Below, one piece after another: positions 30,831 to 50,600 of a stretch of DNA of 64,000 bases. The stretch covers positions 1,488,001-1,552,000 of the forward strand of contig NC_081340.1 of the NCBI RefSeq assembly GCF_022539665.2, given 5' to 3'. Origin of the DNA: Daphnia carinata. Its lineage: Eukaryota; Arthropoda; Branchiopoda; Diplostraca; Daphniidae. The stretch's first letter is position 1. Each line of letters starts with the position of its first letter. The translations under genes and the position numbers were made by a program. Under the pieces are notes generated by a model. It made no database searches, was not told the DNA's origin, and saw nothing but the letters and a program-made list of their open reading frames with translations.

Positions 30831-32946
30831 CTTCCGATGTCTCCTATATTAAGGGGTTCGAATTAACAATTAGCAAAATATGTACGTTAAAACTATAGGA
30901 AAATTCGTTTTGTCAAGGTTCATTGTAAATGACAATGATTCATGTTTAAAAAACAATAGTTGACCGAAATCAGAGATAAGGAGATAGCAATTGTTCAACT
31001 TAATGGAAACGCTATTGAAAGAAATGGTATGGTCGTATGGGGAACGCCAAAATTTCCAAATAAGCTAATGCCAATCTTGTGGTTGCCTACTACCTAAAAA
31101 CCTATGCATTCCTCACGGATTTTCGCAATCTACGACGGCAGACGACGACGACGGACACCAACTTGGTGTCAGCAGTTTTCATGTTCCACGATGCTCCACA
31201 TTTTCTCCTACGAACAAGGCGACAACGTGCCATTCAGTATGTTGACGAGTGTTTTGCACGTCGGCCGGGAGTGTGCTTACCACGAGCCTGGAATTTCGTG
31301 ACTCATTAGAACGTAATTAAGTTTAACAAAGGCTATCAGCAAGCTCTCAGGTAATTTGATACTGAATTTGTGGGAATTTTCTTTGGCATTTTAGTACAGT
31401 CATAAAGTGTTTCAATCCCAAAATAATTCTTCCTTTTTTTTGCCGAGGGAGTCTATAAACCTTTCGCGCCACTCCCTTTTCCTGGGTTGATAACATTTTC
31501 AACTTATATCTTTTAAATGGCCATATAGTTTTTGATACTAGATAGCTAAGCTAGTAATTAGCGTCCCGTGGCACTACTAATTATACGTTGAAAAGTTTTA
31601 TATATCATTTGCGGGACAGCGTGTCGTTTCGTGGAAAAAATGGCGAAGCTACATATTTCACGGATCATCGCGTTTCCTCCGTTTAACAGCTGATAGTCAT
31701 CGAGAGGAGAAATCAGCGCCACGAGTGTCTCCATCACTAGAGCTTAACACGAGTAACTCGGGCTGTTTGCTGAGGTTACTGTTCCTGGTATTTTTCATGA
31801 TTTGACTTAAGATTACAGTTTCAATATATAGAGCATAACTTTAAACGTAGTTTTTAATTAGGTAAAAATGTGTAAAATCTATACTATATAAAAAATCCAG
31901 GAAAAGACGGGGAGCCTGTGTCCGTCACATTATGTATTTGTTGTGATTGGCTGGAAACCGCCGCTGGCTGTAGTGAATTTGCGGGATGTGATTGGCTGGC
32001 GGCCGCCTGCTATAGTGAATTGGTGGGATGGGGATTTGGAAAACTAAACTGCCGGTGGAATTGCGGATTTAGGCTATTTTTCAGTCTATGGGCTTGGCTT
32101 AAAACGGGTGGGCGCTACAGTAGGTAAGCCGGCGGGGCAGAGATTGTACGGTGGAAGGCGGGTAACCACAGCGTTTTTTTGGTGGGAAAAGGGGGTTGGC
32201 GGGAAGAGACTATTCGAGAAAAGACGGGCAACTACAGCGTGCGTTTTCTGGGCTGAGACTGTGAGGGAAAGACAGGCAAAAGCAAATGAAAAGGTGAATA
32301 TGCAACTATATCGGTCGTTTTGGCGGGCAGCGAGTGGGCCGACGGGCAGCAAGTGGGTCAACGGGCAGGGAGGGGGTCGACGGGCAGCGAGTGGATCGAC
32401 GGGCAGCGAGTGGATCGACGGGCAGCGAGTGGATCGACGGGCAGCGAGTGGATCGACGAGCAGAGAAGGGGCCGACGGGCAGAGAGGGGACCGACGGGCA
32501 ACGAGCCGGCCGACGGGCAGAGAGAGGGTCGACGGGCAATAACAGCGGGCTTCGTAGCGGGAAGAAGTAAAATGTGCCATGGCTACTTTTCCCCGGTTGC
32601 AGCGTGGTTCAAGGAGCGGATGACTCATCTCTGCGAAGAGATAGCCACTCTTCCCTTTTCACCCGCGACAATATTTTACCCTTCGCTTACGAGTCACGTT
32701 CATTAGTGGAACAACAATGGCTCTATTACTCTGTTTATTGTCATGATAGAGCAAATTTTTTAGTTTTAAGAATTCAAAACTGCTTACTGCTTTCAAACAG
32801 TCTCTAATAGAGATATCGATATTAAAATCTCCATTTGCTAGTGATTTATACATTTGTAAACGAGATTTCTTTTCTATGTTTTGCTTTCTTTTTTTCACAG
32901 ATATTATCGATTTTTTTATTTTCTTATAGATTTCGACTTGGACGTC
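30831..32946. other. Intergenic region with duplicated and minisatellite DNA
   Basis: No supported gene is present. GC content rises from about 31900. A pair of imperfect direct repeats of about 55 bp (GTGATTGGCTGG...TATAGTGAATT and its partner) lies at 31940-32030. The minisatellite at 32327-32545 opens all frames artificially. The leader of the next gene ends with a CTTATAG acceptor at about 32929. Confidence 0.5.
32327..32545 (+). repeat. 19-bp GC-rich minisatellite, about 11 units
   Basis: The unit GGGCAGCGAGTGGATCGAC is repeated head to tail. The inner four copies are nearly identical and the flanking ones diverged. Because 19 is not a multiple of three, all frames remain open and yield a fake repeat of three alternating peptide phrases on each strand. 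It is not considered coding. Confidence 0.85.
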
Positions 32947-35900
32947 ATGGATAAGGCCTACGAAAAAAATGTTATTGATACGGTGTTACGGGTGGTACAT
33001 GATAACGAACGCACCAACCTGAGCCAAAGCATACGCGTCAGAGAATATCTTGAGAAAAAAGGGTTTTCTATAACGTCGAACCAGGCGCCGGGTTCCACTA
33101 ATTCTGATTCGTTCGCCCTTTGCTTGATACAACACTCGGAAAAATGCTATGGGACGTCTCATTTGAAAGAAGCTCTTTTGGCGCCTTTCGATGAAACGAT
33201 TCAACTTCTCGGCGTAATGTTTAACGAGGATGATCCCGTCGATGCTATTGCAAGCCTAATTAAATACCTCTGCAAAGATATGAAGTTGTTCAAATCAGAG
33301 TACCGTACACCAATCATGGTAGTCAGATGTTACGGCCTACTTGCCCAACCTACAAACTATCTTTACAAAGAAGACCAATGTAAACAGCTTCTAGATGAAG
33401 AACCAGAAGAAACAAATGCCGAGTGGTATTACATATGGTACGATAACGAACGTCAAGTGTTTCAGTCCATTTACTCGAAGAAGTATGATAATGACGAATC
33501 AACTCAGAAACGAAACAGAAGTCCACCAGGTGGGCATTCTACTGCATTAAAATAATGAACTCGTTTTCTTATTACAGTTTTTGCCACAGGGTATACAGTG
33601 CGAATGATTATCACGATGCAGGAGCAACGGTTTTATATCGCCAATGAAACGGTCAACAATAGAGGCAAACTACTGAAGCATTTGGACAAGCATTGCATCA
33701 GATTGACGAAAAATAACGAACAGAGCTTGCCACTAGTCGAATCATTCGTGCTGTGCTTGATTCAGCACTCTTCAGGCAACTATTGTTTAGCCAGCTTGGA
33801 TTATCCACACGTTGCTGTTCGCTCATTGAAACATATTTCTGAGTCGGGCTGGAACGCTTTCCGCGCCAAAATCGAAGACTCTGCTGAAACGTTTGGGTTA
33901 AAATCGAATGAGAGTTTGAAGGAGAGTATCAAATGGATTATCCAACAACTTTGGAAACGGTTTGAATGTTGCAAGGTAAGCATTTTAATTGACGAAACTT
34001 CTACTCAAAAGTTTGCCGTTGTCGTCTTTGGTTCACATTCGACATGCTATGTCGTGTATGAAGACAAAGAATTCAAATTTGTTAACGCTTTAAAAGAAGA
34101 TTCGACACCCTTTTACGTATGGTTTGACGAATCAGAGAAGGTCTTCGAGGCATTGGCGCCTCTAGTTTCCATGTATCAGAATGAAAAAGCAAGTGCCAGC
34201 CTTTACTGGAACGATCTGATCAACCGTTTTGAACGCAGCTTCATTCAGTTTTTGAAGAAAAGGTTCCTCTCATGTTCGAGCTCTTCCGAAGTTGAAAAAT
34301 CATTCGACGACTTGAACGAATACCTTAAAGAGACGCAAGACTACTCATTGTTCTCAATTCAACAAGTGTTTGCACGATGGGGCTCGAACAAAGAATCGCT
34401 TCGTTCAGATTGCCTCAGAAACGATTACATAAAGGTAAGTCAGCTAACGTACAAAAATAAAAGATTTGCTGTATCTCTTCTGTTAACACTCTGGCTTGCG
34501 ATTTCTCTAACCAATCTCTTTGTTACGTTTCTGAAGGTGTGTTGGAGAAACTGCCCAGAATTACGGGCTGTTTTCGCCTGCATGGAAGAGTGTCTCAAGA
34601 CTTTGGATCACGATATAGCGACGAGCTGGTGCAAGGAGCTGTGGAACTTCATACTTGAGGCAATCGCCAGACAAGTGGATCTGGAATTTGCCATGAGAAA
34701 CAGGAAGATTGAGATGGGCCGCAGGAGAGGACGGTCCAAGATCGACATGGCCAAAGAAAAGGTGGAACAGTTGCAGCATGAAATTGAATCTGCCGGGAAG
34801 CGGATGGCACAAAAACAAATGGAGAATAAGATGCTGCAAGAGAAATTGGAAGTACTCGCCTGTAATCAGCTGATTGTTGATATTGGAAGCGTCGACTACG
34901 TTCCAGATTACCAACTCGTACTCGAAGGAAGCGGCCACAAGTTTTTTCAACTGGAAAATGGCCTTGAGCTTGCTGAAACATTATCCAAAGCTGTCCAGCG
35001 GACCAGCGCATCGTCGCAACACCTTAAAAACTATGTGAAAAAAAGAGGAGCCGACAAGATTTTGGGGCAGTTACGTTCGGCTTTGAATGAAGTCGTCGGT
35101 AAAAAACCCTCTGATAGTTGGGTCAACGATCGCAAGTGGCGCGTCGAGGGACCAGCCCTAGTTTTGAGCCAAGTCGTGACTCTGCTCAAACAGAAGGGTG
35201 TTCTCTCTGGAGGAAGATGTCAAGAAGTAACGATCGAAGCCGAAAGAGTTCTTTACATCGACTCGGACTGGGTCACGCCCGGCGTCAGTTTTACGATTGT
35301 GGCTCCATTAGTTAGCGTAGTCAGTTCCGAGAGTCGAATGAAAAGGGTGATAAACACGTCCGGTATGGATGGCAAACCGCACGATTTGGAAAAAGCTAAC
35401 GATGGGAAAGGCGGCGGAGTGGACGGAAGTGATGGTCTTGATGGCGAAGACGGCCAGGACGCTGGAAACATAACCATCGACTGCCTCTCAATCGAGAATC
35501 ATGACATGTTGAAACTGGTTGCTAAAGGTGGAAATGGATCAGACGGCCAGAGCGGTGGAGATGGAAAGAATGGAAATAACGGAGAAGACGGCGCAAACGG
35601 CTCGTTTACATCGGAGGAAGAGGAAAAGAGTGACACTTTTTCATTTGGACGATTTCGTGACCTTTCACCAATAAAAATACACAGTGGCAGCTCAGGATCA
35701 AACGGCCAGGCAGGCGGTTCGGGCGGAAAAGCAGGATGCAGGGGGATAGGAGGACAGGGAGGTGAAATAACAATCACCGCTAAAACCAGTGCGCTGTCTA
35801 GAATTGAAAAAATGGATTCTAAAGGAGCCACAGGAAAACAAGGAACACCCGGTAAAGGCGGAGACTGTGGGAGAGGTGGCCGGCACGGCAAGGATGCTGT

Positions 35901-38900
35901 TTACTACTTCGAAGCGGACGATCCAAACCCTTGGGCTTTTTTTACTGGTGACTGGAAAAAGCATTTGGGTTCCAGAGACGATTTCGTGAAGCAGTGGTGC
36001 AGTGGATTGATCGGCTCAGACAGTTGTATCGGCTACGAGCGCCGTGGGAACTCGGATCCTAAATGGGCTTCTGATGGAAAACGAGGGAGAGAAGGAGAGA
36101 GGGCCAATCAGCGACAGAATGAAAATAGCCGGACGCGCAACTCGGGTTCGCTTCGGCAACGGGAGCGTTCCAGCAACACTCAATCAAATCAGACGGAAAT
36201 GGAACAGGTGATTGCAGCTCAACGTATGAACCAGGAGAAAATACAACGCGAAAGCCAAACTCTTTCTCGGTGCACTGCCGCACTCGATTCACAGAAAAAA
36301 AGGATCTCGAGCGTTCAACAAGAAATCGAGCTGGCAAACCAGGAAATCGCCGTAAACGAAACTACACGCCAACGAGTGAAAGTCAAGATTCAAGAAATGT
36401 TAGAGCAACACATCGTTCATCAGGTTGTTGTTCGTCAGAATGTGACGAGACAAGCAAACTTGCAGTTTGAGAACGACCATCAGCTGGGTCTTCAACAAAA
36501 ACAGACGTCAATTAACGTCAACCTATTAACTTTGCGGGCAGGTTTTCGAAATGAGTCAAACCCAGCAGAATCAACTCAAATACTCGATAATTTATTATTG
36601 TCTGACGGGAGCTCGTTAAGTATCCAGCATCGTTTAAAGTTAATGAATGCTACTCAAATGTTTTATTTGAAGTTGGGACCAAATCGCCAAGATTGCAACC
36701 GAGAATGGTTATTCATTGGAAAGCTAATAGAAAAGTACTCCAATTCAGCTCAAGACCTGATCGCCGGTCTCGAATTCCTCGAAATAAACCAAGGACTGAT
36801 GATCAAACTTTTAGACAGGAAAACTAATGGGAACCTCATTGAAATCTTGCGCGCCTTACTAGTTCCAATCGAAACACATGAAGAGGATGTAATTGGCACT
36901 TTGTTCGAGTTTGGTGTGCGTAACTTACCGTATAACAAGTTAAAGGAGTTGCTCGGCCGCCTTGAGCTGCGAATTTCGCCGAACGACGCCCAACTGCGGC
37001 TCGCTGTCGCTATCCACTACCGAATGCTCGGCCAAGTGACGAGAGAAATTGCCAATTTATTTGGAGACGATCGCAAAACTGCGTTCAGGTGTGCTGATCT
37101 GCTTTTTCAAGTGTCCGATTTGCATTCGCTGCTCCTCAATATTAAAGAAACCGCCCAAATGAGTGATGGCGATCTAACACCTTTTTATTCATCTTTCTTC
37201 GACGAACTTCATGACGAACTCTCCAAAGTCAAAGCTGCCACAACAATCTACCAAGCTGTCAGGCGTTTCGTCCGAAGAAAACTCGATACAACACAGACAT
37301 TTTGAAAGTTGACGACTTTTCCAACATCCAAGTGAGTGAGGTATGGAAGATTGTTTTCCTTATAAACGCATTCCTACTTGAGGCCACTGAAATGGATGCA
37401 GTAAGACAAGGGATACGCAACTCAAAAATAAAAAATCAAAACGCGATAATTTCACTTCTTGAGGAATCGTTTCAAAAAAATATTTTGGATCCTGGTTGGA
37501 AAGAAGTGAGACGGCTCTTGACCGAAAGAGAGATGTTTAACACAGAAAGACTAAAGCGCAAGCTGGAAGATGTTGAACGGGCTACCAGAATGCCATTGAG
37601 CCAAACGAGCTTCGAAGAGAAATCATGTGTCCTGGAACAGTTGAAAGATGCTCTTGGAAACGAGAAAGAAAACGAAGCGTCAGTATTCAAATGGATCAGC
37701 AACAAGGCAAGCTCAGTGGAACCATTTGATGGATTCTTTTCTGGTTCAAGTAAAGAATCGGAGGAGGCAATAGTCGTGAACATCGTTGAGAAGTTAGATA
37801 CTCGAACAGTGAAAAAACTGGTTGAATTGAACTGCCGTCTATCAACTCATCGTATTTCGTTTGATGATAAACAAGTTACCAAGTTGTGTTGCGCTATCCA
37901 AAAAGACTTCCCAAGGATCATCCAGGATTCAAGTTATGATTTGCAATATAGCCAGTCGACATTCAGATCGAACTGGATGCAATACCTCTTGAACAGAGTT
38001 GCAGATGAACGAGCAAAAGTCGATAGGTTGTCTGCGTGTGTGTTGAAAAAATTTCAAGACACAAAAAACGAAAACGGGTCTCTTGCATTGATCCTTCGCA
38101 AATATGGGCTCTACACTAGCACTTTGGAGCCTTTTGAAGCCGGTAAAGCGTGGGAGCAACTGGACAAAATCTCCCAATTAAAAGATGTTTTGCGTGAAGT
38201 TCGAAGCAAATTGAAAGTAGCAGGTGACCAGCTTTCCAAGTTCTACCCAGTTCTAATTTAACTAGCTAATACATCATTTTTTTAAACTGTTCAGTAAAGA
38301 AGCTGTTAGATGTCGTGCAAAAGGCAATTCCAACACTGGAGGATGCTTATCGGAAAACAGCGAATCCACCATCCTGCGATCATGGTAAGAAAAGGATTAG
38401 TCGTGATTAACGTGTAATTTTAAACGAAAATGAATTATCTTTCAGGTTGTGAAATCATTTCACTAGTGGATCGTGTTCAACATCTCGTTACTGGATGTAA
38501 TGAAGTGACGCCCAATAGCTCCTTATTTCAAAATGGAAATTCTTTGGGCGAGTTGTTTAATATCATGGACGCTATCCGTTTACTGCTGAATATCACGGAG
38601 ATTGATGCCACCAAAACAAAGCAAGTATCAGACACGTACGACAAGGTATGCAGCCTGAAGAACATATTCTACAATTGGAAAACTAAGTCGAAAATCCCAC
38701 GATACGGGGGCGGTCAAGAAGTCGTCCAAACTCACGACCGCCTATTGAATTCTCTAGCCGACGCATTCTCGATAAATAGTGAAGACCTTGAAGATTCCAG
38801 GCGAACAGTTTACGATGAGATTTCAAATCACATTGGTGAGATCCGGACGTTCCACAACAAAGATCTCGAACTCATTGGCGAGCTTTCCAAGATCTTTTCG

Positions 38901-41900
38901 GATCCGCGTTCCGAAATAGATTTTTGTCGATTCGTCGAGAGAACGTCTCCCATCTACTTCTCTCTTTGTCCTAGTGGTCTATCAATCGAACGGAAAATTC
39001 GCTTGTTTGAAGCCATCCTTAGAGTTGTTGACATTAAACAGCAGGATCTCCGTGAGAAAAATCTGAGCGGCCTTTTTGGTCTCACTTTGAAACGGGCGTT
39101 TGAACAGGTTTGTTTTGATATCCAGTTAAATTTGAGCTCAGACTAAATTTTTGTTTCGTCTTCTAGAACACGTGGCTGTACACATCAATCGCCCTCTTAA
39201 TCGGCGATCTGTTAAAAAGTGAATGGCATCTTGCAACGTGGGAACAAGCGAAATTGTGGAGCCATTATTTAAAATTGATCGCCGGGAAATGCGAAAACGA
39301 AAACTTTGAAGAAGCATGCGAGATGTTGCTCTCTATACAGCAACATGTTCTCGATTATTGCCGGGCTTACTACGTTGAAAATCTACTCAAGACCACTAAT
39401 AAATCAGCTGACTCCGTCGATTTGAACATGATGAATCTGGCGTTCAACGAAGCCGTAAGTCTTACAACAGACGTCATGCGATTCGCAAATGCGACTAGCT
39501 CCTCCGATTCACACAGATGGACCGTCAGCCAAGTTATGGCTCGCCAAAAGGTTCTGGATGCGATCGTTCGTCTCGGATCATCAAAGTCCAGTTCCTGGCC
39601 CGAAAACACTGTAATAGACCATCTGCTCCGCCAGTGTAATCTTTGGAACTACAGCAACACAAAGTTTAAAGCAGTTATCTCGACAGCTTTCAAAGGAGAC
39701 ACGAACTCAGAAACCCGACGTCGTAAAACTTTCGTCAAGCGTTTAATTTCATTGCGGCACGTTGAGTGGACGGAGAAGCTACTCGCCGAATTGAATTCGC
39801 TTTTGAACAAGTCATACCAGGAATTATCCGTTGTAGTTGGCTATGATGTTTTCACAGAAGAAGAGAGGTCTTTCGTTAATCTAATTGACAACGACGAGGC
39901 AGTCCTGCACATCCTGAAAAGCGAGTACCCATCGTGCTATCTGAACTCTCTGCAAAATTTTGCAATCAAACGAGCTCTCGAGTCTTTTGTGCGCTGTTTC
40001 CTGCCCAGCTTCGCCGGGATAAGCCTGAATCAAGAGGCAGATTTCGAAAAAAAGATGACCGATGAAGCTCAACTCTGGCGTATTGCAAAGACATTTTTAT
40101 CTAAAAAGAAAGCGGAAGGAACATTGAGAGATTGGGTTGTCTGGTTTAATGACGTTTTCATCGTTTCGTTGAACTCGTATCCATCGGATTCAGGGCTTAC
40201 ACTGAATCAAGTGTCAAACTTCCTTGACGATGCCGCCAATTCTAACTTGGAACTATGCCGTCTTATCACAACGACATGCCGACCGCATTATTGGACTCGT
40301 TTCCTTGCCGTTTACACCGTAAAAAATTCGACCTTTCGTCTGGGATTGGGCGAAGCAGAAGACGCCGATGCGATCGTCAGGGACCTCGTCGCGTTTTTAA
40401 TGCGGATTACAAGTGAAACTGGTAGTGTACTAATTCGTTGCTTACGAGAAAAAATTTTAGCGGAATCGGAAACAGCTCGAACAGCCGATTTGGTTTATAT
40501 AGTCCGGAGCGTGGCCTCCGGGCTGAACGAAATCTCGGAGCTCAATTCAAATATTTTTGAAGAGAAACAATTGGTTGCTAGATTCGTGAACGCTGTTTTG
40601 AAAGAGTGGCCAAAAGCCTGTCGTTTAGCGCGTTTCGCTTCCAAGTGGGCTTCTGAAGGACTTGGATTTCTTCGTACGCAGAAGGTGTTGAGCATTTTCG
40701 ATATCGAACTTGGACAGGAGCGCGCAGATCGTCTGTTGGATCGCGCACAGCGCTGCCAGCGGAACAACTTGTCTTTCACATCGTTGCTCGAAAAAATTGC
40801 CGATAACTTGATTCGTTTTCCCTGGATTAGGGAACAATGCATTAAGCTGGCTTCTTCGGACGTCACAGAAGATGAAAACGCGCTTTGGGCATCGGTGATT
40901 GACATCGAAAACAAGGCGAAATCAACGCAAAACAAGGAGCTGACTATCAACGATATTCTTACAATCCTGAGCAACGATCCCGACTCGAAGCTGATGATGA
41001 ACGATGCGGCAAAACGAGCAGAAATTCAGGACTTTGTTCAGCGAGCCAACGATAGCTACAAAATCGCGTACAGCACCTGGGACGAGAAGAAGATCACACA
41101 GTGGGCAGCGAAAGAGAAGAAGGGTTCCGAAGGCAAACCATTGCAAGTGCATGAATTTCTTGCAGTAGCTTCTCGAGCAGTGGAGCTGAAGAAAGGTTAC
41201 AAACCACGAGACGTCCAGATGTTGGCTGTTATACTGTTTGTGACGGGCGAGGATAGCGGGAGCAAAAAAATCAAACGAATGGCTCAGATCTCAACAGGCG
41301 AAGGAAAAACTTTGATAACAGCTCTGCTCGCCATTTATCACGTCCTGCGTCATTGGAACAGCTATAGGCATGTCAACGTGATCACGAGCTCGTCGGTGCT
41401 GGCTGAAGCGAGCGTCAACGAAATCCAGTACCTTTATGACCAGTTCGGGGTGAGCTTGAGCAACAATTGCGACTTGGCCTGTTCAAAAGACGACAAACTC
41501 CGCAAAGAGCGCTACAACTCAGACGTAATTTACGGTGATTTACCCAGTTTCATGCGAGACATTCTTCTCACTCGCTTTTTCAACAAGAAAATAACACGAG
41601 GCAGAGAACCTGGCGCTATTATAGTTGATGAAGTAGATTCCATGCTCTTGGACAAAGGCGAAAGCGTGTTGTACCTATCGCACAACATCCCAGAAATGTA
41701 TCACTTGCGCCAACTCTTTGTCGAAATAGCTGGAACAGTTAACGCGCCCGACGTGCAGGATTTGGCCGAATCGAGAGACATCGTTGCTGAAGTTCAAAGG
41801 TTCATCGAGCCAAGGATCAACGATTCAGACATCGCCGTGCCCAATTGTCTAAAAGGATACGTCAAACATCATTTGCCGACTTGGATCAGAAGCGCATTGA

Positions 41901-44900
41901 GAGCCGCATACCTTTTGAACGTGAAAGACTCGTACAAGATCGATGACATCGGTGATGGGAAAGGAAGACAGGTGATCATCATGGACAAAGAAACGGGCGT
42001 TGAGCAAATCCAGATGGAGTGGTCGGACGGTCTTCATCCCGCTCTTCAGTTGAAGCACGGCCTCAAATGGACCCCCACCGCCTTGAAAGCAGTTTTCATG
42101 TCGAACATAGGCTACTTCACCGAATTCAAAGGCCGGTTTTACGGAGTAACCGGGACATTAGGCTCGGCAGCCGAATGCGATCTTTTGCGCGACGTTTTCG
42201 GCGTAGATTTCTTCCGGATGCCCAGGTATAAGCAGCGCTTCTGCATCCACCACGGTCCGCTCGTTGCAAGCAATGAAGAGGAGTGGCTCCAAAATATGAA
42301 GAAGGCTGTTGAAGAGGTGACCAAGCCCCCAGAACCTCGTGCTGCCCTTATCATCTGCGAAAACATTGTTTCAGCTGAACGCATTCACGCTGCGCTCTCG
42401 AAAACCTCGCAGCCAAAGGCAGGTAAAAACATTATAGGTTGCATTCAAATAATTACATTTTTTTTGGTATAGGAATACAAAGTTAATATGTACACCAGCG
42501 CTTTTGACAAGGATTTCCTGAAAATGCAACACGAAGACGAAGTCGGCCCGGGACAAGTGATTGTTGCCACAAACCTTGCAGGCAGAGGAACAGACTTCAA
42601 GCTGAGCAAACAATTGGAGGAAAATGGCGGACTTCACGTCATCATCAGCTACGTTCCACCTAATGCTCGAGTTGAAGCTCAAGCTCAAGGACGGACAGCT
42701 CGAGCTGGACAGCCCGGCAGCTACCAATTCGTGATTCAAAAGGGATCTGCTCAAGTGCCCGACAAACCAGAATCAACCGACCCCTACGCTGAGCTGTGCG
42801 CATTTAAGATCGCCCGCGACGACGAGGAGCGATCCCGGCTGGAAGATCTGCACCTCAAAGCAGTTCCAAAAATCAAACTCGAAGAATCCCTTTTTGAGCG
42901 TTTCTATCGTGAGTGCATCAAGCCGTTGAGAGATTGTAGCACACCTGATGAAACTGTTGTAACGAGCCAAACTGAGGAGACAGATATCAAGATAAACTGT
43001 TTGAACAACCGATGGGCCCTGTGGCTCGACGACAATGAAACACTGATAGAGCGTGCTCATAGTGATCGGCTGCTGTTCGAGAGTCTCAACGAGGCCTTCG
43101 AAAGCTTCATCTCGAGTGTACGCAACACCCGCTGGTCGAGCCTAGAAACTCTGGCGCAGACCCCCAGCGAGCTAATGTGCGTAGCTCGTTTTTACGAAAA
43201 CCATCCGAAGGTTTACAAAAACTACCCGGAGAGAGCAATAAATTGCTTTAAGAAGATCGCCACCGAAGAGCCTCAGTTCTGCGAAAACGCTCTCCTAGAA
43301 AACGTTCGGCTGATGCTGTTGGACAAAGCAGGCTACTACAAGAAGAGGGAGGCAAAGAAACTTCTCGTTAAAGCAAAGAAAATGATCAATTCTAGGATCG
43401 ACATTCTCTTCGGGCTCAACCAGGTCGTTAACACCGTCCGGCAGAAGACGAGTTCCGGTCCCGATCCTGTCGAGCACTTTTCGTTTGAAGAGCAAACTAG
43501 CAATCTAATCCGCTTGCTTCAAGTGCACTTATCCTCCGTCAGTTCATTGCTCGGGGTACCTTTAACAGACTCTCTGTCCAGTCAGTTCCACTCGGAAGAA
43601 AAGAATGACGAACCGTTGAACAAAGTAATTGATTTTCTAGCCAGAAACTGCAACTATCACAAACCCTTGCGCTACTCGAGAAAGATGAAAATAATCAACG
43701 AAGCAAAAACAAAAGAACTGCAAATCAGTGGATCAGCCGTTAAGTGGCCAACGTTTTTGAGCCACTGCCAAACAGAGCTAGTCGAGTGGTTTGCTGCCAG
43801 AGTGCAAAAAAGGTCGGGTGTATCAAGTGCAACTTGGTTGCTATCAAGTTTGGAAACGAAGATCGCCGAAAGCGAAAAATGCCTGTGGAATCAGCTAATC
43901 GAAAACGGTTACATCGACAAGGGCCGGTCGGCCAGTTCTTACACCATCAAAGCAGACAACTCGCTGGAGCCAAAGCTACTCGAAAAATTCGTCGAGTACA
44001 AGCGAATCCTTCCTGGCTGGCTAGCGTTCCATGACGACGAGGATTTTGACGAAGTCTCTTCGACGTTAGGCATCACGAATGACGACCCCCTTGGACAGTC
44101 CATTAAACTAAGCACCATTAAAGATCTGCTGATTGACAACAAGTTGCTACTCAAATCTGACCGACCCGTTCACAGAATATTAAAGAACATCCCTTCAGTA
44201 CAAGAAAATGTTGAAGCCTATCTCGTGCCAGGAGTACCGCTTGTTTCATGCGCCGACGTATTGGCCGCCTGGTTCCCTTCAACGGCGTACCAAGAGGGTC
44301 AAAGAGTTGAGCAACCCGATTTTGATGGTCGCAAAACGAAATTGGCTGATCAGTTTAAAAATTACTTTATCGACATTGGTATCTTAAAGCAGCCCGCTAT
44401 CATGTTTCCATTCCCATCAGCAAATCGCTCAAAAGAAGATATCGATTCTGATTTAGAGCGGATGAAGAATTCCTTCAAATCTCAAAAAGGTTTCGACGAT
44501 TTGGCAACGACTTTGTACAAAGAGAAAGAAAAAGACAACGGAAAACGACGGGATCTCCTGGCTGAACGTTTGATGATGGCGGTAAGAGAGCACCTTGGTC
44601 AATTGAAGATGTTCGCCCAAATGAAATCTTCATTCACCTACTTGTACGACAACCTACCACCGACTTCAGTGAACCCTGCTGACGAGTTGCAACAGTTCGA
44701 CGCTCAGTACTTTGATCGTGTTGGCCGTTTTGAAGAGCACATCCCATTCGACTGGAGGACTTTGGTAGTAGCTTTGCTCGGAGTGGCCCAGCTCGTTGGA
44801 GCGGTTGCCTTCCCGTTCTTCAGCGCCGGATTGGCAGCCGAGGGCATCAACGATTTGATGTTCGCCTTCCAGAGTTTCAAGAACCCCGGGTCGTTCTCGT

Positions 44901-47113
44901 GGTCCACGTACGCCAAGGGTAAACTCAAAGGATTGGCAATAATGGCGCTAACGGCCGGGATTGGGGCCGCTGGGCTTATTGCGAAAGGAGGGCAGAGCTT
45001 GATGGGAGCAGCGAAGCTTTTGGGCCGTTTCAATGGCACATTAAAGGGATGGTGGCAGCTGGGTAAACAGGTGCTAGCCAAGTGCGCTGAGGCTCTACTC
45101 TCCAGTGTGGTCGGACAGATAGTACAAAAGTTCCTCAACTGGGCGAAAAAGTTCATATTAGAAAAGGTATTATCACGCGTAAAATCCTACCTATTCGAAA
45201 ACCCCGTTTGCCGCCCAGCTTTTGAAAGGCTGAGAGCGTTAATGAACGACATTTTAAACGAAGCGCGGCGCTTTGGTCGCTCTTTGGGTGAGGTGCGCAA
45301 ATCGGTACAGGACGCAATCGACCGAGCATGTAACCCTGACGCTCCTTCTGCCATCGATGTGTTCTCTCGAATCAAAGATAGAGCTCTTGACATTCGTGGG
45401 GAGATGCTCGGTGCTTTCAGCAATTCCACGGAGGGATTCATCAACGGTCAACAGAATCACCGTAACATTTACAAAGCATCTTCTGGACTTCATGGAATTA
45501 CAGAATCAGTGCACGCCGGTACTCTTGGAAAAGTGCTAAAATCAACAGTCAAAATCACCGATAGCGTAGGACGTATCGCGAAGGAGAGTCAAAAGATAAT
45601 CAAAACCGTCAATCAAATGCAAAGTGTTGTAAAACTTGCGGCTGAACCAGCGTGTCTCGTCAAGGACGTCAACGAGCAACTACAGCAAGAGCTCCGGCGA
45701 CTGAACAGCAAACAAAACACGGACAACAAAAAGCAGCCGATGGTGGATTTAACCGAAGCGCAAGTGCGCGAATTTGATGGTTTTAAAACGGAAATGTCGA
45801 ATAAAATTCAAGATTTGATCATGAAGAAGAGCCTCGATGAGATCCAGTCTGCTTGGGCACAGCCGGCGCTTCAAGCCAAGCTCGAAAAGACAATTCGAGA
45901 AAAGGCAACTGAAAAGATCCAAGCTATGGGGCTCATCAAATTGCCACCAGGTGCTGATCAACTGAGGGACGAAGCCAGTCAATTGGAAAATGAGGAACAA
46001 GTTGGTCTGGCTTACGAAGAAAGAATCGAAAAGATCGGCGAAGAGATGGCCGGCCCGGTGGAGAAACAGCTGCTGGCCGACCGATACGGGTGTTCGTTCG
46101 AGCTAGTCGATGAAACAGGCGATTATTCTGATGGATCAGGAACGTTTTCTTACCATCCGAACGGTGAACCGGGTAAAAAAAAGATCGTGATGAAGGTGAC
46201 GCAAAATGAGGAAGGCACAAAGCATCTGGAGCTGATCATGTCGGATGGGACGACCTACAAACACGTCCCTGGTCCTGGAGAGTCTCTCAACGGATGTCTC
46301 TATCACGCGGCGGCAAAGGCTCTGAACACATCTTCAGTTGAATTGATCAGCGAGCTAAAGGACGAAGCGAGGTGCAATGAACGAGTTCGGATCATGTACG
46401 AAATCGGCGTAAACGAAAAATATAGCCGATTGCACACCGGTGCCTATGCTAAGTGTTCCGATTTCAAAGTAAAACGCGATGAGCTCGGCAGAAAGGTAAC
46501 TGCGAACGCTATTATTACTACAGCAGATGTTGAGACGGTATCGGGCTCGGATCCAAAAGTAAGAGAAATAGTGAAGACAGGTTTTGACGGCGAGAACGTC
46601 AGTCACCTCATTGCTAGATGTCTAGGCGGCGAATACAAGGAAGAAAACCTCGTTAGTTTACCCAGCATGACGAATCAGATTTACATGCGTTTTCACGAGA
46701 AAGGACTCGAAGCATTCTGCCAGGCTCACATGAAAGATAATGTTCCAATCGCCGTACAATTGCAAATTCATTACGAAAACAGTGTTAAAGACTTGGAAAA
46801 TATGCTTACAAGTGAGAAGAAGGTTATTCATGGAATCAGTTGTATTGAACTGGATTTCCATCTCAAAAACGATCCAAACAACTTTTACCGCAGTGGTCTT
46901 ATCCCGTGTCAACCAGGCAAAAGCGGAACTGTGACTGTCGGTGGTGATACTTTCAAGAAACATTTTTTAGAACACAAATCAAGCCATCTGAAGAATGAAG
47001 GTATTTCCAACGTGCCTATCGACTACAAGAAAAGAAACCCAGGAGAAAAGCGCCAACATTATACTGAGTCTGCTGACCTTCACAGCCATCATCCACACAA
47101 TAGAAAAAAATAA
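32947..47113 (+). CDS. Giant SecA-motor protein with glycine-rich, hydrophobic, OTU-like and nuclease-like modules
   Basis: Exons are 32947-33529, 33578-38223 (one frameshift near 37290), 38295-38384, 38446-39107, 39167-42422 and 42483-47113, about 4,620 residues. In order: two related N-terminal copies (SFALCLIQHS, SFVLCLIQHS); a collagen-like glycine-rich tract (about residues 790-970); a coiled coil (about 1065-1170); long helical parts; and a SecA-type DEAD motor with QISTGEGKTL (Walker A, 41287), VDEVDSMLLD (41624), YGVTGTLGS, ATNLAGRGTD (42567) and QGRTARAGQPGS. Then follow a hydrophobic module (44745-44990), an OTU-like NGCLYHA patch (about 46290) and HLIARCLGG (about 46600), which resembles the non-specific endonuclease NS_2 family. 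SecA drives protein export in bacteria and plastids and is not part of animal genomes. An AATAAA overlaps the stop. It is probably transferred from a bacterium and domesticated; its function is unknown. Confidence 0.85.
34435..34536 (+). other. Possible in-frame 102-bp intron in the SecA-like gene
   Basis: The segment starts with GTAAGT after ATAAAG and ends CTGAAG, with a pyrimidine-rich 3' part. It is a multiple of three and has no stop. If retained it adds 34 residues including a hydrophobic run (FAVSLLLTLWLAISLTN) unlike the rest of the domain. It could be an exonised or retained intron. Confidence 0.45.
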
Positions 47114-47642: not shown

Positions 47643-50600
47643 TCATTTGCCAACCATTGAGTGAATCATAGAAATAAAATCGTCTTTAGTGACTTGATCA
47701 AACGAACTCTGTTGAGGTCCTTGAAGGCCGTTTTTCCACCACCACGCGATCCGGCTGTTGTGACATTCACTGTGGATATATAAGAAAAAAAAAATAACAT
47801 TAGGTTTGTTTGGTAGGCTGGCCGCAACAAAGTATGGACGTATGCAACACTTAAACTCCTCTACGATTTTTATGGTTGATAAGAGCTGAACTCACGACGT
47901 ACAACCATGTCTTTTATTCCCAACTACAAAATTTCATTGCCAATACGTGCCAAATAAAAAGAGAAAAGTTACTTACATGGAATTGGCGATGGAATCTAGT
48001 GGGCACTCGTACACAGAGGCTCGCGTCATCACATGGTACCAGTACTTTCTTCCAGAGCTCTTACTAAGCGCTAACATCCACGGATCTAAGCCAGAGATAC
48101 AGTTTATCACACATAAATTGTTACAGTCTTCAGTAATGATGTTCTTAAGTTACGATGGACGATACAACCAAGGAGTAATAATAGAAAATAAAATACTAAC
48201 GCTTTGTGGCTTTGTACAACAATAGTCCGGACGGGATGTATGCCCTTTGTTCGTCCTCTTCCAGACAAAAAACGAGACGTTCTTGGCATCCAGAATTTTT
48301 AATTATTCGCGGAAGTAGCCTGGTCAAGAAAATTGCAAACATAAGTGTTTTTGAAAATGTAAACATGGAATATCATACCGATGGAAAATTTGATCAACAT
48401 CTTCCAGTTTAAAGTTCTCCTTCGCTCGGACAATGACTAGATCCGTCCGACTAGCCTTACTCAAAGCCTTGCAATATTGCCGAATTTTTTCACTTCTAAG
48501 ATTTAAAATAAATATTTAAATATTAGGCAACGAGATAAATAAAACAGATTTAAAAAATCAAATAAAACTTAAATAACACCAGGCCCATTATCAGAGCTAC
48601 TGTGATGGCCTATAAGACATTTCTGGGAAAGACTAACGTTAGTATTTAACCCAAGATGCCTTGCAAACCAGCACAATGGGCCTGGTTTTCGAATAGTGTT
48701 TTTTAAACACAGATTGAAATGAAAAAGATTTTAGGGGGCGGCTTTCCACAGGTGTTCTGCCAACAATATTGGGGTATCTTTCTTCTTTAGTCTAACCTTT
48801 CTTTCATGTGAAATTGACTGACATCCACCCCGCCTAAAAAAACTGCATCTATGACATGGAGGGCAAGAGAACGCTTTTGAGATCTGCCTTCTCCTCGCAG
48901 TTCTTGGATCAATTCTCCATAGATTAATGTATCGCGTGCCAGTTCCACATGTTCAATCAGCTTCTGCCATCGACTTTTGTCTATATCCCAGCGGAAAACG
49001 TTGGTACGGCCTAATCCTGTAAACGACCATACAAAAGTGTTATTTACTTACTTATATTTATTTTTCTAGCGACACTTCTCGCATCTGGGAAATGGGAGTC
49101 TGTAATATTGGATTGCACAAATGTCATACTGACCAAGATAAAAGGTTTGCATAGGATTATCTTTTTCCGATCCGATAACGACGCACCTCCAATCATACAC
49201 AGATTTTACGGCTTCCCGAAAAACAGAAATGTCCATTGGAGTTGCTTTCTGGTCTAGTACGCCTTTACAAATAAGCAGGTCATTTTAAGGTCATTTGTAC
49301 ACATTTTGGGTTCTGAAAACCAAAGTGATTACTTACCGGAATTGCTTAGTAAAAGCTCTTTACATTTTTCAGCCGGGGTCATCCTAAAGTAAAGAAATAC
49401 ACATGTATGACCGTTTTAATTTTGCTTGGCCACAAGAAATTCAAAAAAAGGAAATAACCTCGACGGTGCCATTCGAGTCTTGTCTGGAATTTTCCAAAAT
49501 TCTAACGATTGTTTTCTCAGCTCATACTGTCGATCCTCTCGCAGCGTAACATCTTTACAAAACGCTGCAATTTTGGCGAGGTTTATGACTTGCCTCATTC
49601 CTGAGAGAAACAACTTTAATTTATATTTAGTCGAAATGTATATAAAGGAGCAAACCCAAATTATTATTGGACTCAACGAGGTAATTATAAAACTGTTCAT
49701 GGGAGGTCAATAATTCCAACGGTACGATATCAGTGACGTCTGTATTGGTACTGCCCAACTGTTCAAGACGACGATTTATTTCGTACAGATAAGTCTCGAC
49801 ATCTTGAGTATCGTCTCGTTTCCATTTACAGATTATATACCTATTGTGAATTTTAAAAAGCGCATTTTTAATTTCGACTCGGAAAACGATTGCATATTCA
49901 ACAAAATAACAAAATACCTTTCTGAATTCGCCGGACGAGAAGTATTAGGTTTATGAATGGAAATGTGTTTGAAGGAGCGATGCATCAAGTATACTAAACC
50001 CACACTAAATGGTGTGAATAAGTCGAACAACTTGCAAACAAAATGCCCGCCTGTAAACAGGACATTTTTAAAAGGACAGCTTAAAAAAATGTTGTAACGA
50101 ATTACCTGTTCGAACTATACACAACGCTACGAGGAACTGGCAAAGGTATAGTCTTTTGGAAAGTATTTCTTGTAGATTTTCCTGACCTTCAACTGAAAAT
50201 CCCTAAAACATTGAATGTAATATAGCATAAGATTTTAAAACATAAGAGTCACAAAAAAAGAAACCCTACTCCATCAGCCATCATAAAATGTACACCTTTG
50301 CCGGTCTGAGTAATAACAAAACGTTGAAATTCCCTGATGTTTTTAGGAATATACACATCTCCGTCTCCATCAACTCCCCCAGCGCCTAAAATAACAATCA
50401 CACGTTAAGGGTCAGGGGATTCAGGAATGTGGAACATGCAGATAATAATGCTTTCTACCGTAATGAGGTTCAAAACATTCGCATGGGGCAGCATGGAAAT
50501 CTTCCAACTTGAAATCGTTTGATTTCTTTAGGGTAAAACCAAAGCCTTTCGACTCCCATTTTTTCCTCCACAACACGTATTCCGAAAAGCCACCAGGGCC

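Follow-up and report, generated by a model that had tools for sequence, protein, structure and literature searches.

A giant spliced gene of Daphnia carinata combines a SecA-type motor, a hydrophobic module and a predicted C-terminal nuclease domain

We report that a 64,000-nucleotide stretch of the Daphnia carinata genome (assembly GCF_022539665.2, contig NC_081340.1, positions 1,488,001 to 1,552,000; hereafter the window, in whose numbering all positions are given) carries a giant spliced gene in which a SecA-type motor is followed by a hydrophobic module and then by a predicted nuclease domain. The gene lies on the + strand, starts with an ATG at 32947, ends with a stop codon at 47111-47113 and comprises about 4,600 codons if a junction at 37.2-37.3 kb is an intron. 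This order of motor, module and nuclease domain was observed, as was a last part that varies from relative to relative, and kinship with a little-studied, giant, toxin-like SecA-motor family of Rickettsiales, Legionellales, Parachlamydiales, Amoebophilaceae and others is well supported. In bacteria, SecA is the textbook motor of protein export; animals use Sec61 and, to our knowledge, have no SecY partner. We tentatively favor the explanation that the gene encodes a giant toxin of endosymbiont type that the host has retained and whose motor would act, at a membrane, on the protein's C-terminal cargo.

Motor, hydrophobic module and C-terminal domain

The motor core reaches from the Walker A motif through the second RecA-like lobe (41288..42740, +) and is split by an intron (42423-42482). 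Pfam identified SecA_DEAD (about 41006-42169, +, E=1.3e-24) and P-loop_SecA (E=4.7e-8), and SecA2 was the top match of a PDB sequence search (E=6.7e-16); given these E-values, a chance match is excluded. A preliminary description of this DNA, made from the sequence alone, had named the main motor motifs, and all were recovered in place and in frame: TGEGKT (41294-41311), VDEVDSM (41624-41644), TGTLGS (42149-42166), ATNLAGRGTD (42566-42595) and QGRTARAG (42686-42709), carried on two RecA-like lobes. The elements TGEGK, DE.D, TG, GRGT and Q..GR..R were common to all 15 aligned rows, which included the window gene and three canonical SecA proteins. The profile search proposed in that description led to SecA_DEAD and not to another helicase family. 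Its picture of a spliced animal gene for a giant multi-domain protein with a central SecA motor was borne out by the exons and Pfam domains; the hydrophobic module and the C-terminal nuclease had no place in it.

The clamp (preprotein cross-linking domain) scored weakly in the window sequence, with 21.4 bits for SecA_PP_bind against a cut-off of 23.5. In the model of a close relative, P0001, the clamp fold was visible and 568 residues aligned with SecA 14-623; with this fold standing for the window motor, the clamp is apparently retained. When the P0001 model was compared with known structures, all 28 listed SecA entries outranked the listed helicases, the best being a substrate-engaged SecA. 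NCBIfam matches of the second motor half ended at profile positions 534-553 of 762-789 in six of eight cases and at 495 of 814 and 743 of 1118 in the other two, and the P0001 model stops too early for the helical wing, two-helix finger and C-tail. The SecA equivalog TIGR00963 gave 81.5 bits for the first motor half and 20.1 for the second, scanned apart, at a cut-off of 800. Because of the score of 81.5 versus 800 bits and the separate clade in the trees described below, we place the gene outside the SecA translocase proper.

A hydrophobic module at 44702..45043 (+) was delineated with a hidden Markov model built here (eight seed sequences, the window protein among them) and a hydropathy scan, in which all three strongly hydrophobic stretches among the 2,628 residues scanned fell inside it. 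Among rows of sufficient length, 25 of 27 from bacteria and 10 of 11 from D. carinata carried the module, which lies 280-903 residues behind the motor in the former and 654-745 in the latter. An identity with Latrotoxin-CTD was considered and is not claimed: no Pfam family matched the module stretches of the window and of the locus L036 even at an E-value of 10.

The predicted nuclease, a ββα-metal Endonuclea_NS_2 domain, lies at 46472..46783 (+), with the codon of a conserved SHL histidine at ~46604. It scored 29.3 bits at a Pfam cut-off of 27, the histidine was kept in eight of the nine rows compared, and a predicted model of low-to-middling quality displayed the ββα-metal fold. Of the C-terminal model only this nuclease part could be interpreted, from the VIA alignment, and Foldseek gave no match to the model at E<=0.001. 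A homology search with the C-terminus of the window protein recovered one protein, P0121. Ahead of the nuclease, a pattern of E.Q..AD, H and a C-containing element resembles an OTU domain with its halves swapped. In shuffle tests two of five first halves and none of five second halves beat 99% of the shuffles, and of these two only P0091 aligned as expected; a PDB profile search with the first OTU-like half yielded no OTU. With the tests mostly negative, this permuted OTU is kept only as a lead.

Among relatives, the C-terminus carries four kinds of predicted domain: ββα-metal nuclease, HNH nuclease, ADP-ribosyltransferase-like and OTU. In Pfam scans of five open reading frames (ORFs) from the genome search described below, L040 had an HNH/WHH nuclease as well as LysM, L031 an ADP-ribosyltransferase-like domain and L039 LysM alone; P0105 carries OTU, and P0091, a nematode protein of the other branch, has NS_2 in precomputed Pfam annotation. 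Judged from sequence, the relatives thus share a constant part followed by exchangeable, putative C-terminal effector domains, as in polymorphic toxins.

Relatives and the two Daphnia lineages

The homologue search scored 7,994 candidates and retained 6,044 proteins at E<=0.001, of which 120 were listed. Besides Daphnia, the matches listed came among others from insects and a springtail (Anopheles, Culex, Ctenocephalides, Harpegnathos, Ephemera, Diamesa and Allacma), from rotifers, nematodes and others (Rotaria, Didymodactylos, Pristionchus, Panagrolaimus, Acrobeloides, Globodera, Diploscapter and Symsagittifera), from the fish Genypterus and Pholidichthys, from the ciliate Stylonychia, and from Rickettsiales and Legionellales. 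SecA-like proteins P0101, P0113 and P0120 are annotated on long contigs of two teleost fish, and the first two of them make up a deep branch of their own in the trees. In a genome search the best 80 of 555 confirmed loci were kept; among the best 34, 22 belonged to Rickettsiales, Legionellales, Chlamydiales or Amoebophilaceae, as judged by titles and group knowledge, and 19 held ORFs of 2,386-4,507 codons, several ending at the locus edge.

For phylogeny, 160 motor rows passed the coverage filter and canonical SecA was thinned from 44 to 12; rows were chosen rather than exhaustive. Two quick trees were built, one of 91 rows, with canonical SecA from Saccharibacteria only, and one of 75 rows, with a broader canonical set and without long-branch rows, near-duplicates and most environmental rows. 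In both, a long, fully supported branch separated canonical SecA from the giant family, so that the tree suggested by the preliminary description places the motor in a clade of its own. Rooted there, the first two branches were bacterial, a metagenome-assembled genome (MAG) of Parachlamydiaceae and Legionella quinlivanii. The window gene grouped with environmental rows, a D. carinata paralogue on contig C7 and a Daphnia pulicaria protein, then with springtail, Stylonychia, a Legionellales MAG and a bacterium; this Daphnia lineage is termed class A. The second lineage, class B, grouped with nematodes, rotifers and insects. A single Daphnia clade was rejected by the approximately unbiased (AU) test on the 75-row tree (p-AU 8.98e-08, log-likelihood difference 124), which was posed after the first tree had been seen and in which P0001, P0003 and P0123 were counted as Daphnia-like for clustering with Daphnia. 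Daphnia holds two separate lineages.

The D. carinata genome contains 17 places with SecA_DEAD, the window gene being on contig C10. The number of loci is nearer 15, because C28 apparently holds near-copies of two C2 genes. When this short contig was set against the start of C2, L024 and L016, the sole pair compared, showed 98.8% protein identity, and L023 and L011 appeared alike; C28 is perhaps an alternative haplotype. The C7 paralogue, with ORFs of 1,756 and 3,033 codons, can be matched to the window gene along much of its extent. The two motor ORFs matched with 35.8% identity over 1,000 residues, window positions 35023-35658 in exon 2 matched the paralogue upstream of its motor ORF (tblastn E=1e-38), and its end reads like the same nuclease, judged by eye without a Pfam scan. 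The remaining places are class B; where their frames are long, the largest ORF has 1,300-2,461 codons, in some cases ending at the edge of the fetched stretch. L006/L014, L017, L020, L021 and L023 contain stops or have their frame split, in some cases perhaps by introns. On C9, five class B places (L009, L010, L013, L014 and L022) cluster within 8.45-8.83 Mb, one with an internal stop. An annotated relative on C9, P0108, is Daphnia carinata LOC130700927, and D. pulicaria has an annotated relative of 3,001 residues. GC content at third codon positions (GC3) was higher in class A (window gene and L018), at 0.48-0.56 including 0.56 at the C7 locus, than in the five class B ORFs measured (within L010-L015), at 0.41-0.44.

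Gene structure and genomic neighbours

The gene, all on the + strand, begins with exon 1 (32947..33529), an open frame with the first ATG at 32947. Exon 2 is safe in frame at 33578..37227, its open frame extending to 37305. The junction that follows (37228..37320) brings a change of frame and shows no convincing intron; a weak intron, an assembly slip and a true lesion are the candidates. Exon 3, whose upstream limit is approximate, occupies 37321..38223 as an open frame, and is followed by a small exon 4 (38295..38384) between GT-AG introns and by exon 5 (38446..39107), again an open frame. Exon 6 (39167..42422) encodes the pre-motor region and the first motor half, and exon 7 (42483..47113) the second motor half, the hydrophobic module, the nuclease and the stop. 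Five introns of 48-71 bases could be placed (33530-33577, 38224-38294, 38385-38445, 39108-39166 and 42423-42482), each with GT-AG ends and keeping the frame. The last of these replaces a boundary drawn at 42473 from the open frames. After splicing, the product reads ..SQPKAVNMYTSAFDKDF.., in agreement with relatives that have no interruption there, such as P0003, and the open frames starting at 39167 and 42473 are one and the same. The preliminary description had called the introns in phase, which holds for five of the six junctions and fails at the sixth, near 37.2-37.3 kb. The AATAAA that it noted does overlap the stop codon and is weak evidence.

A Pfam scan of ten flanking ORFs returned MutL_C (MLH3-like), ALAD and TGF-beta propeptide above cut-offs, sub-cut-off matches to DNA_mis_repair, GH18 and a ParE-like family, and four ORFs without match. 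Of the two animal neighbours named earlier, an MLH3-like one was thereby recovered and CMTR1 was not confirmed among the ten. The ParE-like toxin match (49627-49944, -; E 0.0021, under the curated cut-off) is probably due to chance. Just upstream of exon 1, at 32330-32540, a short tandem array was read by eye, with units like GGATCGACGGGCAGCGAGT.

Competing explanations and known systems

Contamination or mis-assembly of bacterial DNA onto a Daphnia contig is already contradicted and very improbable. It could draw on composition, as the three large window-gene exons have a GC content of 0.46-0.47 and a GC3 of 0.48-0.54 against a GC3 of 0.34-0.37 in three flanking exons. Against it stand a chromosome-scale contig, introns of 48-71 bases with splice-site ends, 17 family places genome-wide, a C7 class A locus of similar length and composition on another contig, the 3,001-residue D. 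pulicaria relative and animal genes on both sides, and the dismissal of contamination in the preliminary description stands. That the protein is a true SecA-type preprotein translocase, serving general export through a host channel, is scarcely credible: the motor and the modeled clamp fold of P0001 would suit it, but the equivalog score of 81.5 of 800 bits, the separate clade and the giant size with a C-terminal nuclease do not. A selfish or passively spread gene, with repeated entry, expansion and decay and no host function, would fit the presence of 17 places in a single genome, several of them interrupted by stops or with a divided frame (some of these may be introns), the C9 cluster, the patchy spread among animals and the frame change at 37.2-37.3 kb. 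We nevertheless consider it distinctly improbable in view of the long intact frames of the window gene and its C7 paralogue (1,756 and 3,033 codons), of class B dN/dS (nonsynonymous to synonymous substitution rates) of 0.22-0.43 in seven of eight pairs (the eighth, a near-identical pair, gave 0.91; pairs are not independent), and of P0121, which keeps its frame to the same C-terminal end with 68% identity over the last 687 residues. For the window gene itself, it is the long frames and this frame conservation that suggest a function.

A more serious competitor, possible if somewhat doubtful, is a domesticated endosymbiont-type protein whose motor now serves as a cytosolic remodelling or sensing ATPase and would control the nuclease by analogy with RIG-I-like helicases. 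The ranking of 28 SecA entries above the listed helicases, with a substrate-engaged SecA on top, speaks against this, as does the regular presence behind the motor of one hydrophobic module, for which a soluble sensor would have no need. Under the preferred explanation of a retained giant toxin, the family would have a bacterial origin, with two or more entries into the Daphnia lineage. The motor clamp would hold an unfolded chain, probably the C-terminal part of the same protein; the hydrophobic module would dock at or open a membrane; and threading driven by adenosine triphosphate would move or release the nuclease as payload. The Daphnia protein may then act as a host-made nucleic-acid-cutting effector against microbes or selfish elements; this step and that of the payload are the two least certain. 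We regard as unlikely the more far-reaching proposal of an animal-encoded single-chain export machine, in which the motor, fused to a membrane-entry module and a nuclease cargo of its own, would drive that cargo across the membrane of host or microbe with no need of SecY, and which would be inherited from host-associated bacteria whose same motor and module carry exchangeable toxins.

Several observations weigh against the preferred explanation. We infer every step of the mechanism, and the C-terminal part is proposed as substrate from co-occurrence only. The nuclease assignment combines a Pfam score barely above the cut-off with a low-to-middling model, within a C-terminal model that is poor overall (predicted local distance difference test score 52). 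The close relative P0121 scored 23.9 bits, below the Endonuclea_NS_2 cut-off; blastp of the nuclease stretch matched P0121 alone among the collected sequences, and a PDB sequence search with it found nothing. Pfam revealed no effector domain in four class B ORFs, P0108, L035 and L044, and module matches were missing from 21 of 45 listed proteins, two of 27 bacterial rows and one of 11 D. carinata rows, which were not checked individually. Nor was a signal peptide-like stretch seen at the N-terminus, where the top 19-residue hydropathy in the first 60 residues was 0.02. In the 75-row tree the fork after the first bacterial rows, which includes the fish rows, lacked resolution. Two Rickettsiales rows, P0026 and P0033, adjoin Culex inside the insect group; genes therefore moved more than once, perhaps both ways. 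The direction of transfer is mixed, and the available text of Duplouy 2013 (PMC3639933) argued for transfer from animals to Wolbachia. Synonymous sites are saturated between the window gene and its C7 paralogue, so that this pair gives no estimate of selection for the window gene.

SecA-type motors had been taken as foreign to animals in the preliminary description, a view that does not hold: they were reported in 2013 in Daphnia, ants and mosquitoes, and many animals are among the matches listed. The accessible text of Duplouy 2013 (PMC3639933) describes a clade of eukaryotic secA, in which Daphnia and ants have branches, and, like the gene studied here, very long SecA-domain genes, including Wolbachia wBol1_1091/1092, common to Wolbachia, mosquitoes, Harpegnathos and Daphnia and apart from bacterial SecA; that text mentions no hydrophobic module, C-terminal nuclease or pair of Daphnia lineages. 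As far as the available text of Bordenstein 2016 (PMC5062602) goes, phage WO SecA is closer to invertebrate than to bacterial SecA and stands among the eukaryotic-like domains of the eukaryotic association module, filed under virulence-factor secretion, with no account there of an architecture of module and variable C-terminus. Polymorphic toxins and Amoebophilus effectors, in the accessible part of Zhang 2012 (PMC3482391), likewise join a constant part to exchangeable C-terminal toxins; the effectors include SecA-like, helicase-related domains, and toxin domains were transferred to arthropods including Daphnia. The SecA-like domain is there one of the variable C-terminal domains, whereas in the Daphnia gene it forms the constant part at the centre. 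Giant actinobacterial toxins (eLife 2021, PMC8195603, available text) resemble the Daphnia gene in an internal SecA-like ATPase, predicted to aid secretion, but differ in lineage and in their domains (GT4, ART, metallopeptidase and MFS).

The SecA/SecA2 preprotein translocase shares the motor motifs and, in P0001, the clamp fold, and differs in size, context and family score. Endonuclea_NS_2 nucleases (EndA, Spd1, Serratia nuclease, EsaD and the EndoG fold) have the same ββα-metal fold and conserved histidine; unlike them, the putative Daphnia nuclease is the C-terminal piece of a motor protein. The SecA motor in animals is already known, and the layout of motor, module and exchangeable toxin seems new: neither it nor a nuclease-tailed animal SecA protein was described in the literature searched, with most subscription journals, bioRxiv preprints and supplements outside its scope.

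If our explanation is true, a motor with its clamp apparently kept, a membrane-seeking module and exchangeable toxins would constitute a self-contained toxin-delivery design. The motor of this family spans symbiotic bacteria and animals, from rotifers to fish. With two lineages in Daphnia, a genus that offers laboratory clones, gene editing and rich symbionts and parasites, the role of these genes is directly testable.

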